From positions 1 to 31,458 of IMG/VR virus record IMGVR_UViG_3300017710_000031: a stretch of DNA of 31,458 nt, one strand, 5' to 3'. The notes under the pieces were generated by a model. The model saw only the letters and a program-made list of their open reading frames with translations. It had not been told where the DNA came from and made no database searches. This DNA comes from a virus. Of the stretch, positions 22,150 to 28,345 are shown piece by piece (positions within the stretch are counted from its first letter, which is position 1; the number at the start of each line of letters is the position of its first letter). The position numbers and the translations under genes were made by a program.

Positions 22150-22623
22150 ATGGCATATAGTGGTAGGTATAGAGTAAAAAATACCAATAAGTATGAGGGT
22201 GATCACACACAGGTGGTCTACCGATCTCTTTGGGAGAAACACGCATTTCGATGGTGTGACGAAAATCCCAATGTGAAACGGTGGTCATCCGAGGAGGTTG
22301 TCATACCCTATCTATACGAGGTAGACAATCGTTATCATCGGTACTTCATGGATTTAAAAATCGTTCGTGAGGATGGGTCTACATGGTTGATTGAAATAAA
22401 ACCAGACAAAGAACGCAAACCACCAACAGGTAAGAAGACCAAGAGGTATCTGAATGAAGCATTGACCTATGTCAAGAACCAGAACAAATGGAAGGCGGCA
22501 GAAGAGTATGCCAAAGATCGTGGATGGCACTTTCAGATATGGACTGAGAAGAATGAACCGTTGAAGTCTCTTATTCCCAAATCAACAAAACCGTTGAAAC
22601 CCTATACTCGAAGAAAAAAATGA
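22150..22623 (+). CDS. gp4: Head completion protein gp4 (nuclease-like fold)
   Basis: T4 gp4 (also called gp50/65) is needed to complete DNA-filled heads before tails attach and has a restriction-nuclease-like core. The match is strong: MAYSGRYRVKNTNKYEGD (T4 MAYSGKWVPKNISKYRGD), VVYRSLWEKHAFRWCDENP, VVIPYLYEVDNRYHRYFMDL and WLIEIKPDKERKPP. The PD-(D/E)XK-type residues Asp68, Glu82 and Lys84 are all visible. The length of 157 is close to T4 (about 150). Translation probably uses AAGG five bases upstream. The stop overlaps the radical SAM start (ATGA), so the two are coupled. It is the only head gene in the window. Confidence 0.93.
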   Translation: MAYSGRYRVKNTNKYEGDHTQVVYRSLWEKHAFRWCDENPNVKRWSSEEVVIPYLYEVDNRYHRYFMDLKIVREDGSTWLIEIKPDKERKPPTGKKTKRYLNEALTYVKNQNKWKAAEEYAKDRGWHFQIWTEKNEPLKSLIPKSTKPLKPYTRRKK

Positions 22624-24353
22624 AACATCATGGATTAATAATAACAGGTGCATCCTTTACATACCCTATAGGTAAAGGATTTGTTCCAGAACACGCAGTT
22701 TATGATGCCGGTAATTGGGAAGAAATGCCAGTTAGGGGAACTGGTGCTCATAGGATTGCAACTCATTTGAGGAACACTGGGAAGTGGGACATTGAGGTTG
22801 TGGACTATCTTGAGGCATGGGATGACGAGGAACTATTTCAATTCTTTGAAACTCGAATTACTAAAAATACCAAATGGATAGGGTTTAGTGTATTCTTCAC
22901 ATACTCAATACACTTGGCACAACCTATAGTAGTAAAACAAAATAGACTAATATTACACATCAAAGAAAAATACCCTTGGATAAAAATTGTAGTTGGTGCA
23001 AGCAAACTGGCAAATGTTATCCGACATGAACAAGTTGATTACTTTTGTATAGGCAATGGAGAACTTGGGATTGTTGCTTTGTGTGATTATTTTACTGGAG
23101 ATGCACCACACCCTAAAGTAAAAGTCAAAGTCAATCCTTTCAATCATATAGATTTGGAAGGAAGGCAGTATGTTATCATAGACTGTTTTAATGACTACCC
23201 TGCATTTCCTCATAAGAATCCACACACATCATACGAAGAAAGAGATTTCATACGAAGTAATGAAGTATTGACTATGGAGTTGTCTAGAGGATGTATATTC
23301 AAATGCACATTTTGTGACTTCTCCCCGTTGGGTGTTAAAGGTGACCATAGTAGACACGCAGAAAACTTTGAAGAAGAATTAAAAGAGAACTATGAGAAAT
23401 GGGGTGTAACCCATTACTGTCTTTCAGATGAGACCGCTAATGCAAGTTCTGAATATATATCGAAGTTTGCAAACATTGTAAGAAAACTTCCCTTTCAACC
23501 TCAGTTTCATGGATTCATTCGTGGTGATTTATTAATAAGACGAGCAAAACAAGACTGGGACAATATGATTGATATGGGATTCACCAGTCAATCTATGGGT
23601 ATTGAGACATTCAACCATGCGTCTGGCAAATCTATTAATAAAGGATTTTCCCCGTTACAGATGCAAGAAGGATTGCTTGCATCCGCAGAGTATTTTAAAA
23701 AGAACAGAAAAACTGGTAATCATTACAATCAAACATTGACAATGATTGCTGGTTTACCCCACGAAACATTTGAGACTCTGGATAGAGGTGGTGAGTGGTT
23801 AAATAAGTATTGGCACAATCAAGTCAATATACTCCCATTGCATATCTCACAACATATCACGGATGGTATTGATGCAGTTTCAGATATAGATAAAGACCCA
23901 TCCAAATATGGATATACATGGAGAGATTCAAGTGCTTTAGATAGAGTTATAGAGGATTATTATTATCAAAACTGGGAAGTGATGAGAGTATTAAAACCGA
24001 ATTATGGTCTACGAGATATGGTAGATGATTATCCAAATATCAAATTGGAAATAAGAGAAGAATCAAAAGAACGTGGAGAAGAAACAAATTCTCGTATATG
24101 GGTACATCCAAGTGGGGATTATGACCAGATTGATATGTTGGAATGGACTACCCTGTTTCAATCAGACAGAATAATCAAACTAGGAAGACCAGAAAGTCTG
24201 AATGGATGGCATATGGGTTGGTATAAACAACTAGGATATGACTTGAGAGAGACTTATGAGAAAAAATTACCCGATATAACAAAGAAGGATGTAGATAAAT
24301 ATTACGGTTTTCTTGAACGATACAAAAAAAACAAGTTAAATTGGTATAAATAG
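22620..24353 (+). CDS. Radical SAM enzyme with N-terminal B12-binding-like domain, 577 aa
   Basis: The radical SAM [4Fe-4S] motif CxxxCxxC is intact (Cys225, Cys229, Cys232 in SRGCIFKCTFCDFSP). It is preceded by the strand VLTMELSRG and followed by a TIM-barrel-like run (HYCLSDETANASS, QFHGFIRGDLL, GFTSQSMGIETFN, LTMIAGLPHETFETL). Residues 1-165 look like the Rossmann-type B12-binding domain of class B enzymes (WIGFSVFFTYS, WIKIVVGASKL, VDYFCIGNGELGI) but lack DxHxxG, so cobalamin may not bind. The substrate is unknown. It overlaps gp4 by ATGA. Compared with flanking genes it favours AGA for arginine and looks more AT-rich, suggesting later acquisition. Its last codons (Tyr-Lys-stop) encode a late promoter for the next gene. 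Enzyme class is well supported; the reaction is not. Confidence 0.88.
   Translation: MKHHGLIITGASFTYPIGKGFVPEHAVYDAGNWEEMPVRGTGAHRIATHLRNTGKWDIEVVDYLEAWDDEELFQFFETRITKNTKWIGFSVFFTYSIHLAQPIVVKQNRLILHIKEKYPWIKIVVGASKLANVIRHEQVDYFCIGNGELGIVALCDYFTGDAPHPKVKVKVNPFNHIDLEGRQYVIIDCFNDYPAFPHKNPHTSYEERDFIRSNEVLTMELSRGCIFKCTFCDFSPLGVKGDHSRHAENFEEELKENYEKWGVTHYCLSDETANASSEYISKFANIVRKLPFQPQFHGFIRGDLLIRRAKQDWDNMIDMGFTSQSMGIETFNHASGKSINKGFSPLQMQEGLLASAEYFKKNRKTGNHYNQTLTMIAGLPHETFETLDRGGEWLNKYWHNQVNILPLHISQHITDGIDAVSDIDKDPSKYGYTWRDSSALDRVIEDYYYQNWEVMRVLKPNYGLRDMVDDYPNIKLEIREESKERGEETNSRIWVHPSGDYDQIDMLEWTTLFQSDRIIKLGRPESLNGWHMGWYKQLGYDLRETYEKKLPDITKKDVDKYYGFLERYKKNKLNWYK
24345..24352 (+). promoter_or_regulatory. 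Late promoter inside the radical SAM 3' end, abutting the next start codon
   Basis: The plus strand reads TATAAATAGAACTATG. TATAAATA overlaps the final Tyr-Lys-stop codons of the radical SAM gene and ends five bases before the ATG at 24358. T4 spacing puts the first transcribed base at that ATG. No Shine-Dalgarno is present. Confidence 0.75.
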
Positions 24354-25670: not shown

Positions 25671-25688
25671 CATTATTTGGAGAATATA

Positions 25689-26405
25689 ATGGCATTACCT
25701 AAGTTAAATGTGACTAATACCTACAGGTTGACAGTACCGTCAACTGGAGTTGAGGTGTCATATAGACCCTACTTGGTCAAAGAAGAGAAGCAAATGATGA
25801 TTGCCAATGAAACTGGTGATCAGAAGCAGATGATGGAAGTGATGGCAAAGACCATTAGTGCTTGTGTGGAGGGTGAACTAAATGTCAAAGAATTAACTAC
25901 ATTTGATGTTGAGTATCTTTTTACACAGATTCGTGGTCGGTCTGTCGGTGAGACTGCCGATGTTGCCATCAAATGTGATGGTGATGAGTGTGGACACAAA
26001 ACAAAAATAAATGTAAATTTGATGGATGCAAAGGTTCAGATGAACGAGAATGACTCTCTAATTCCATTATCCGATGACATTTCGATTGAAATGAAATACC
26101 CTGCATATGGTGATGTTATAAAGAACTATAAAAAAGGGGAAGAAGAGTCTGTAGAGTTTGGTTTTACCATGATGGCAAAGTCTATAGAAGCAGTATTGAC
26201 CGAGGATGAGAGAATCGTTCTCAAAGATTTACCAGTAAAAGAAGTAAAAGATTTTATCGACTCTATGACCAGAAAACAGTTTGAATCTGTTGGAGAGTTC
26301 CTTGAAGATATTCCACAATTAACTCTAGATGTTGAATGGAGTTGTGAGCAATGTGGTAAGGATAATAAGCATAAGTTGTCGGGGTTACAGGATTTTTTTT
26401 CCTAA
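25689..26405 (+). CDS. gp26-like baseplate hub or tail-assembly chaperone, 238 aa
   Basis: I choose the ATG at 25689 (MALPKLNV) because GGAG lies six bases upstream; a TTG at 25677 has no ribosome-binding site. VEVSYRPYLVKEEKQMMIAN, TTFDVEYLFTQIRGRSVGE and the C-terminal GLQDFF match the T4 baseplate family that holds gp26 and gp51, as I recall it. These are hub assembly factors, and a gene of this kind just before a tape measure behaves like the tail-assembly chaperones of other phages. Cys96 and Cys101 (CDGDEC) plus Cys219 and Cys222 (CEQC) could form a zinc ribbon. The last codons run through eight T bases, where a -1 shift would extend the protein to 302 residues. Family assignment is moderately confident. 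Confidence 0.75.
   Translation: MALPKLNVTNTYRLTVPSTGVEVSYRPYLVKEEKQMMIANETGDQKQMMEVMAKTISACVEGELNVKELTTFDVEYLFTQIRGRSVGETADVAIKCDGDECGHKTKINVNLMDAKVQMNENDSLIPLSDDISIEMKYPAYGDVIKNYKKGEEESVEFGFTMMAKSIEAVLTEDERIVLKDLPVKEVKDFIDSMTRKQFESVGEFLEDIPQLTLDVEWSCEQCGKDNKHKLSGLQDFFS
26393..26399 (+). promoter_or_regulatory. Putative -1 ribosomal frameshift site
   Basis: Positions 26393-26400 are eight consecutive T. In the gp26-like frame the codons are GAT TTT TTT TCC TAA, giving the slippery heptamer T-TTT-TTT one codon before the stop. After a -1 slip the reading continues in an open frame for 65 codons to 26594. I did not identify a definite downstream pseudoknot. Confidence 0.65.
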
Positions 26406-26596
26406 ACCTCTCCCATGATAGTCTTGAGAATCACTTCAAGACTAATTTCTTTATGATGCACAACTACACTTATTCTTTGACTGAACTTGAGAATATGATG
26501 CCTTGGGAGAGGGAGATATATGTTACTCTTCTGCAACAATGGTTAGAAGAAGAGAAGCAAAGACACGAGAAACAGCAAGCACAGATGAGAAAGTAA
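26399..26596 (+). CDS. Frameshift extension of the gp26-like chaperone (-1 frame), 65 codons
   Basis: This frame is open from within the end of the gp26-like gene to TAA at 26594-26596, immediately followed by the tape-measure ATG. Its product runs LNLSHDSLENHFKTNFF, then MMHNYTYSLTELENMMPWER, then EIYVTLLQQWLEEE, a well-formed helical sequence. The only ATG codons (26453, 26456) lack a Shine-Dalgarno, and coding-like sequence continues upstream of them to the slippery run. It is therefore best read as the C-terminal extension of a fused 302-residue protein, like lambda gpGT. If translation were independent, a 48-residue protein from 26453 would result. I recall similar short sequences after gp26 in cyanophages. 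Reality of the coding sequence is likely; the frameshift is inference. Confidence 0.65.
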   Translation, partial: FLNLSHDSLENHFKTNFFMMHNYTYSLTELENMMPWEREIYVTLLQQWLEEEKQRHEKQQAQMRK

Positions 26597-28345
26597 ATGG
26601 CAAACGACAAACCTAGAACAAAAAGAGAGTTAGAGGAAGAGAAGCAGAGACTTCAAGGAGTCACTGAGGCACTTACTCAGCAACGTGATGCCTCACAGAA
26701 ACTGACCGAGGAATTGAAGAAAGGAACAGCACAGGCAGTCGATAATCATAAATCAAATATGGAACTTGCTAAAAAGGCAGAAGAAGCAGGAGATGAAGCG
26801 GCATCTCGTGATGCCACATTTGCAGGGTTGACAGCAGTTATTGAGTCACAGGCAATGGCGGCACTCGCACAAGTAGAAGATAATAAGGCAGCGAGACTGG
26901 AGGCAGAAAGAAAAGAATCAAAGAAACAACTCGATGAAATAGAGAACAAACGAGAAGCAAACGCAAAATTAGGTGTGGTCGGAAGATTCCGAAAAGGAAT
27001 GAAGGATGGGGATAAAGATTTAGGCAAAGGGATCAAGGCACCTAATTTTATCACCAAACTTGCTAAACTTGGTCTTGGTCTTGTTGGAGTCAAAGTCTTT
27101 ACTACGATGATACAGAACTTCGATAAAGTTAAAGCATTCACGAAAGAGAATATTGTCCCTGCATTGGAAGGTACTTTTAATTTTTTGAAGGATACCATGT
27201 ATCCATTTATCAAAGATAACTTCAAAGAAATATTCGATGGTTTGGTAAAAGTCGGAGCGGCATTTATTGCCTTCAAGGTTTTTGAAAAGATTTACAATGC
27301 AATTCTATTTGTGAAACGTGGTCTGTTGATGATCAATACAGGACTTATTGCTGTGGGTGTCGATCTAGGGAAAATGACAGCAGGAACAGGAAAAGCAGTT
27401 TTCGGTAAAATCTTTGGTGCAGTAAAATTCCTCGGAAGAGCATTTCTTGCCGTAAATCTTGCTATATTGAAATTTGCGGGTAATCTTATTACTATGGTGA
27501 CAAAGGGAGCAATCTTCCTTGTCTCACAGGCAATAAGATTCCTCAAGATGGCATTTGTTGCCGTACAACTTTTCACAATGAAACTGGCAACCTCACTGTT
27601 TGCTATGGTAGCATCTGGTGGCAAAGGTGCCTTGGTGATGTTGGCAGGGGCATTTAGTAAAATGAGACTTGGATTGTTAGCAATCTCAACATTCATTACT
27701 GCCACTATGGTACCTGCACTAATGGCAACACTAGCAACACTTGCAACTGTAATGGCACCACTCCTACCGTTTATTGCCGCTGGTGCAGCGATTGCGGCGG
27801 GTCTATACTTCCTTGTTCAATATGCCAAAGACTACAATGGATTTGACGATGCGTTCGATCTGATTGGTTTGGCACTGGCAGAAGCAAAGGATGGGTTCCT
27901 TCGTTTAGGTAATGCTATTATCAAAATGAGAAACTTCGTTACTGGACTGGTAGGTTCTATCGCAGAATATGCAGGATTTGAACCAGATATACTGGGCCCA
28001 CAAGTGGCACTATATGAGGTAAACAATGCTCAGAAGTTTAGGTCAGAGGTTCATCGGAAACAAGAACTAGCGGCACAAGAGGGTGAGAAAAAATTAAGTC
28101 AGTTAGATGATGATCCTTTCATGGAAGGACTGGATATGACTCAGTTCCCAGAACTGGCAAATCTTCAAGGTGATCTAAATAATGCTATGTCAGATGCACA
28201 GATGATGCTATCCCAGACCAATGTGTCCAATGTTGCAACCACGAACAACAGTTCCTCGAATCATATGTACAATAATCCTGATCCTGCCGTAGATAACAAT
28301 GATGGTTTGGATAGACTTGCACATCTGTATAGATTAGGGTATTAA
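26597..28345 (+). CDS. Tail tape measure / hub protein (gp29-like)
   Basis: Tape-measure proteins fix tail length and are ejected ahead of the DNA. This 582-residue protein is almost the length of T4 gp29 (590), which suggests a T4-length tail. Residues 1-125 are charged coiled coil (Glu, Lys and Gln rich). Residues 150-410 hold a series of long hydrophobic or amphipathic helices (KLAKLGLGLVGVKVFTTMI, MVPALMATLATLATVMAPLL) typical of the membrane-interacting part. The end is polar, with an Asn/Ser-rich linker and RLAHLYRLGY. The ATG adjoins the stop of the frameshift ORF (TAAATG) and has only a weak ribosome-binding site, so ribosomes arriving from the shifted frame may start it. The chaperone gene just upstream supports the call. 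Confidence 0.83.
   Translation: MANDKPRTKRELEEEKQRLQGVTEALTQQRDASQKLTEELKKGTAQAVDNHKSNMELAKKAEEAGDEAASRDATFAGLTAVIESQAMAALAQVEDNKAARLEAERKESKKQLDEIENKREANAKLGVVGRFRKGMKDGDKDLGKGIKAPNFITKLAKLGLGLVGVKVFTTMIQNFDKVKAFTKENIVPALEGTFNFLKDTMYPFIKDNFKEIFDGLVKVGAAFIAFKVFEKIYNAILFVKRGLLMINTGLIAVGVDLGKMTAGTGKAVFGKIFGAVKFLGRAFLAVNLAILKFAGNLITMVTKGAIFLVSQAIRFLKMAFVAVQLFTMKLATSLFAMVASGGKGALVMLAGAFSKMRLGLLAISTFITATMVPALMATLATLATVMAPLLPFIAAGAAIAAGLYFLVQYAKDYNGFDDAFDLIGLALAEAKDGFLRLGNAIIKMRNFVTGLVGSIAEYAGFEPDILGPQVALYEVNNAQKFRSEVHRKQELAAQEGEKKLSQLDDDPFMEGLDMTQFPELANLQGDLNNAMSDAQMMLSQTNVSNVATTNNSSSNHMYNNPDPAVDNNDGLDRLAHLYRLGY

Follow-up and report, generated by a model that had tools for sequence, protein, structure and literature searches.

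Phage lambda makes gpG and gpGT as the short and long forms of one gene that lies just 5′ of the tape measure gene, with the additional part of the long form encoded by an extension that has no start of its own. A three-part signal directs the frameshift in Escherichia coli dnaX: a Shine–Dalgarno (SD)-like element, the heptamer A AAA AAG and a stem-loop. For phage T4, gp26 and gp51 are both listed as hub assembly chaperones, and gp51, which is required and absent from the particle, has been called essential and of unknown function (PMC3004832). Tail assembly chaperones of T4-like phages were identified by Vladimirov, Gautam and Davidson in 2022, a study known to us by its title and through two papers that cite it (PMC10885494, PMC12846349). 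According to these citations, there are T4-like phages in which a short chaperone gene and a fused long one take the place of a frameshift (PRFect, PMC10885494), and the same study is credited with −1 signals of the poly-T type in TAC-N genes of T4-like phages (PMC12846349). The Pseudomonas phage Adele and the Vandenendeviridae possess a conserved −1 frame with a GTTTTT motif 5′ of the tape measure gene (PMC12846349).

The locus described here belongs to a marine T4-like virus, IMG/VR virus record IMGVR_UViG_3300017710_000031; the whole stretch analyzed, 31,458 nucleotides, is referred to as the window. We consider it highly probable that −1 programmed frameshifting at this locus furnishes a tail assembly chaperone in a short and a long form. 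As in lambda, a single gene just 5′ of the tape measure gene (presumed in the window) would yield both forms, and the extension is startless. Unlike in lambda, the slip site is T TTT TTN and the gp26-like protein possesses a further domain past its TAC-like fold; a sequence relationship to gpG/gpGT is not expected. The arrangement of SD-like element, heptamer and stem-loop at the marine loci resembles that of dnaX, though the genes are unrelated and the heptamers differ. The Vandenendeviridae are a different phage group, and their locus is likened to that of the window by its layout. An earlier note on this DNA had regarded such gene logic as not generally described for T4-type phages; that statement is out of date, and the novelty of the present locus is modest, because T4-like chaperones and poly-T signals are attributed by the citing papers to the 2022 study. 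Relative to that study, as represented by its title and those papers, the additions made here are breadth (160/160 loci), codon-level evidence, two stimulators and a set of exceptions; these may overlap with its contents.

The gp26-like protein matched PF12322 (T4_baseplate; E = 4.9e-59, 200.1 bits against a curated cut-off of 24.5) and, in a profile search, phrog_150 (E = 3.1e-63). Its ATG is preceded, at a distance of 6 nt, by a GGAG ribosome-binding site at 25679–25682. The earlier reading of the 3′ end of the gene as GAT TTT TTT TCC TAA, set within a run of eight T, was confirmed, and that run is the sole T-run of at least seven in the window. The −1 frame is open from 26375; from the slip point at 26399 it reads FLNLSHDSL..., the predicted junction sequence being ...LQDFFFLNLSHDSLENHFK. 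As previously noted, this frame stays open for 65 codons and its stop (TAA, 26594–26596) abuts the ATG at 26597. The accompanying claim that the extension lacks a ribosome-binding site also holds: it has no start with such a site, and the first ATG in the frame, at 26453 and 50 nt past the gp26 stop, is preceded by ACTTCAAGACTAATTTCTTT and has no SD.

An open frame of 64 codons is expected from base composition alone with a probability of ~0.017, so that the length of the extension by itself proves nothing. Chance is excluded by homology to phrog_634 (E = 1.7e-27; “baseplate hub assembly catalyst”, the marine “gp51”) together with conservation of the frame in 160/160 loci. The “startless ORF” of the earlier note does indeed have no start of its own, but it is not anonymous, as it constitutes the C-terminal domain of the gp51 family. 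The extension also matched phrog_150, the gp26 profile, at the profile's C-terminal end (5e-8), a sequence match that hints at the existence of natural fusions. Profile searches with the 582-residue ORF downstream gave no match above noise; the attributes listed for it in Table 1 suggest a tape measure protein. In Cr30, the cassette is followed by one small gene and then by an ORF annotated as tape measure.

Table 1. Features of the chaperone cassette in the window, and the gp51-like regions of Ackermannviridae (numbered within the respective loci)
Feature	Position	Strand	Remarks
gp26-like gene, short product (TAC-N, G-like), 238 aa	25689–26405	+	PF12322, phrog_150
Degenerate SD-like CGGGG, where most relatives have GAGGG	26380–26384	+	weak in the window
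Slippery heptamer T TTT TTT, in phase with gp26	26393–26399	+	part of T8, 26393–26400
gp26 stop TAA, one codon past the slip site	26403–26405	+	
−1 frame extension, gp51/T-like C-terminal domain, 65 codons + TAA	26399–26596	+	phrog_634
Stem-loop past the slip site (3′), with 10 bp, a loop of 6 and a 19-nt spacer	26419–26444	+	
Downstream 582-aa ORF, presumed tape measure	26597–28345	+	position, length, helical/hydrophobic make-up
Ackermannviridae gp51-like regions	L106:3060–3290, L204:2180–2440, L205:2250–2460, L206:2255–2450		

To gather related loci, we searched by gp26, by the extension and by a motif from mid-extension, and added isolates; the 160 distinct loci counted are those with both domains on one strand. 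All 160 encode the gp51 domain in the −1 frame and carry T TTT TTN in phase, with no counter-example in the set. The same −1 frame and in-phase heptamer were observed in all 78 loci found by the gp51 extension motif alone. Conservation of the T-run, the −1 frame and the extension together lends support to the −1 frameshift, fusion and G/GT logic put forward in the earlier note. The heptamer is TTTTTTC in 101 loci, TTTTTTT in 38, TTTTTTA in 20 and TTTTTTG in one. Constraint is also apparent at the level of codons: i) the first Phe codon at the slip site is TTT throughout, and ii) the pre-slip codon, which encodes S, D, N, A, T, R or G, ends in T in every locus. A T-ending codon is expected in 61% of cases per cluster, corresponding to a probability of ~1e-21 over 88 clusters if these were independent; the loci are related, and the conservation probabilities are thus not independent. 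Counted from where the first slip codon begins, the gp26 stop codon starts 6 or 9 nt further on in 154 of the 160 loci. Among relatives, −1-frame stops occur as near as 4 nt 5′ of the slip codon, and entry into the frame must therefore take place within the T-run. The frameshift layout is kept by KVP40, nt-1 and phiAS5, all of which are filed, together with the T4-proper phages, in the Straboviridae.

Mapping the folding z-score in 40-nt windows, averaged over 88 clusters, revealed a minimum at about +6 nt from the heptamer (mean −1.86, 41% under −2) and values of ~0 elsewhere, through gp26. The stem-loop in the window has a minimum free energy of −11.5 kcal/mol (z = −3.75), and 0/200 shuffled sequences were as stable. 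In a covariation test on the window group, the rows of which were hand-picked relatives, two-sided changes were present in 6 of the 10 pairs, and 72% of cells were paired as compared to 28–47% when slid. The distance of the hairpin varies by clade, either 5–10 nt or ~20 nt downstream, and the 19-nt spacer of the window exceeds the usual length. A single helix shared by all loci was looked for and not found; as hairpins differ among clades, the claim for structure rests on the folding peak and on the window-group test. The variability of alignments A1 and A3 was too great for scanning, and the mixed alignment A5, in which gp26 C-termini were misplaced, was left out of folding. Upstream of the heptamer, an SD-like GAGG, GGAG or AGGA is present in 109 of 156 relatives (70%), as against 12% of control windows, and Glu at this position is encoded by GAG in 85/106 cases (80%) versus a background of 28%. 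The SD-like element probably stimulates frameshifting, and would do so weakly in the window.

The gp26 fold was modelled from an alignment using AlphaFold2 (pLDDT 93.6), a single-sequence prediction being unusable (pLDDT 32). In this model, residues 1–86 adopt a fold similar to that of 2ob9, the HK97 tail assembly chaperone (Z = 7.4, rmsd 4.5, 85 aligned), with which gp26 shares 13% identity and relative to which it is about twice as long. The same residues matched 3fgx with Z = 7.5, while the next unrelated rows scored Z = 2.9. Support from the model for a tail assembly chaperone fold in gp26 is moderate, since Z stays below 8 and Foldseek gave a weak E-value.

A model for the cassette emerges. 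Its layout, the heptamer and the conservation thereof, colinearity with T4 gp51, and selection acting on both codons and RNA structure are read from sequence, and we infer the occurrence of slippage, its rate and the chaperone role. Most ribosomes would stop at the TAA at 26403 and release a short tail assembly chaperone of 238 residues. A minority would slip one base back on U UUU UUU, aided by the downstream stem-loop, and read 65 more codons, furnishing a long chaperone of ~302 residues that ends in the gp51 domain. As lambda gpG/gpGT suggest by analogy, both forms may coat the tape measure protein and hand it over in tail-tube assembly at the baseplate hub.

The two T4 proteins are, like the marine cassette, members of PF12322, with gp26 corresponding to the short product and gp51 to the long fusion from end to end. 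In T2, gene 26 encodes 208 residues and gene 51 encodes 249; T2 gp51 matched PF12322 over residues 1–201 (4e-55) and phrog_634 over residues 147–246 (8e-24). Using hhalign, the predicted marine fusions aligned to T4-type gp51 over 242 columns with no gap at the junction (E = 1.5e-23), and the alignment to T4-type gp26 stopped at the junction (E = 1.3e-26). By these alignments, T4 gp26 can be read as the short form and T4 gp51 as its hard-wired long counterpart. While the cassette of the window occupies one strand, genes 26 and 51 of T2, 44RR, Thanatos and Acinetobacter phages are divergently transcribed, and no frameshift can thus join them. The proposal that the T4 gp26/gp51 family are chaperones made in two forms is supported by colinearity with the short and long products, with the refinement that T4 itself has its long form as the separate gene 51 and so does not use the frameshift. 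In the phylogenetic tree, T4 gp26 and T4 gp51 form two separate clades on long branches, and the duplication cannot be rooted.

Three other explanations were weighed against programmed frameshifting. In the first, termination–reinitiation (translational coupling) at a start codon near the gp26 stop yields gp51 as a small protein in its own right. Although annotators have assigned gp51 its own start, 51 of the 160 loci, the window included, possess no ATG, GTG or TTG before the conserved region. Reinitiation could make use of an ATG within ~14 nt of the gp26 stop in 79/160 loci; however, an SD is located 4–16 nt upstream for only three of these 79, and the window has no nearby ATG. Overlapping stops and starts (TAATG in KVP40 and nt-1, TGATG in Cr30 and RL2RES) would suit coupling, yet the heptamer is retained even in loci with TAATG, and T4 gp51 is continuous across the junction. 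We judge simple reinitiation unlikely and assign it a small probability. In the second, a fusion mRNA arises from transcriptional rather than ribosomal slippage on the T-run. The T8 of the window, a length found in 19/160 loci, would be compatible with such slippage, but the run is exactly six T in 122/160 loci, and six T are too short for efficient polymerase slippage, which argues against this explanation. Moreover, the in-phase X XXY YYZ register, the downstream hairpin and the upstream SD-like element are features of a ribosomal shift, and transcriptional slippage is likewise judged unlikely, its probability being very slight. Lastly, that the −1 frame is an untranslated relic of a split gene or a product of sequencing error, for which the missing annotation in some records might speak, is scarcely credible given that the frame, heptamer and conserved protein are common to 160 distinct records, isolates included, and that homopolymer errors would not respect codon phase.

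Exceptions to −1 frameshifting at a T-run heptamer were detected in two settings. In Ackermannviridae (L106, L204, L205 and L206), the −1 frame still encodes the gp51 domain, but T TTT TTN is absent and ACTTTTTCGCTAATG, ACTTTTCAAGTAATG or ATTTTCATTTAA is found instead. The gp26 stop forms TAATG in three of these, and BSP101 has no ATG there; non-canonical recoding or reinitiation is possible. In Synechococcus phage S-SCSM1 (NC_070962.1, L202:1475–1690), the heptamer is present and is followed by an insertion of ~11 nt that shifts the gp51 domain to +1; in −1, a stop is reached after a few codons. The insertion could represent a real loss, a bypass or a sequencing error. One tentative scenario, which we regard as possible rather than probable, is that the wider T4-like group inherited the frameshift cassette from its ancestor, that T4-proper escaped from it by duplication into gp26 and gp51, and that in Ackermannviridae the −1 layout persisted while the canonical heptamer was lost, so that recoding or coupling there relies on a non-canonical signal.

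If −1 programmed frameshifting holds true, annotation would need to be corrected across hundreds of marine T4-like genomes, in which gp51 either is called as a separate catalyst with a doubtful start, as in Melnitz-3 (47 residues), or lacks any annotation. The gp51 domain is unannotated in Synechococcus phages ACG-2014b (L201, KJ019132.1) and S-CAM8 (L203, JF974299.2), in both of which the −1 frame and heptamer are intact. T4 gp51 would become clear in evolutionary terms, as a tail assembly chaperone in its long form, and the need for two chaperone forms would become testable in T4 genetics. Frameshift, gene duplication and the heptamer-less arrangement would be natural variants of one short/long chaperone design.

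Elsewhere in the window, a radical SAM protein (PF04055, E = 1.3e-10) is encoded at 22620–24353, within the structural gene block. Its gene sits between a TnsA-like gene and that for the DNA end protector gp2, and overlaps the upstream gene by 4 nt. Where the TnsA-like gene sits, relatives have the head completion gene.
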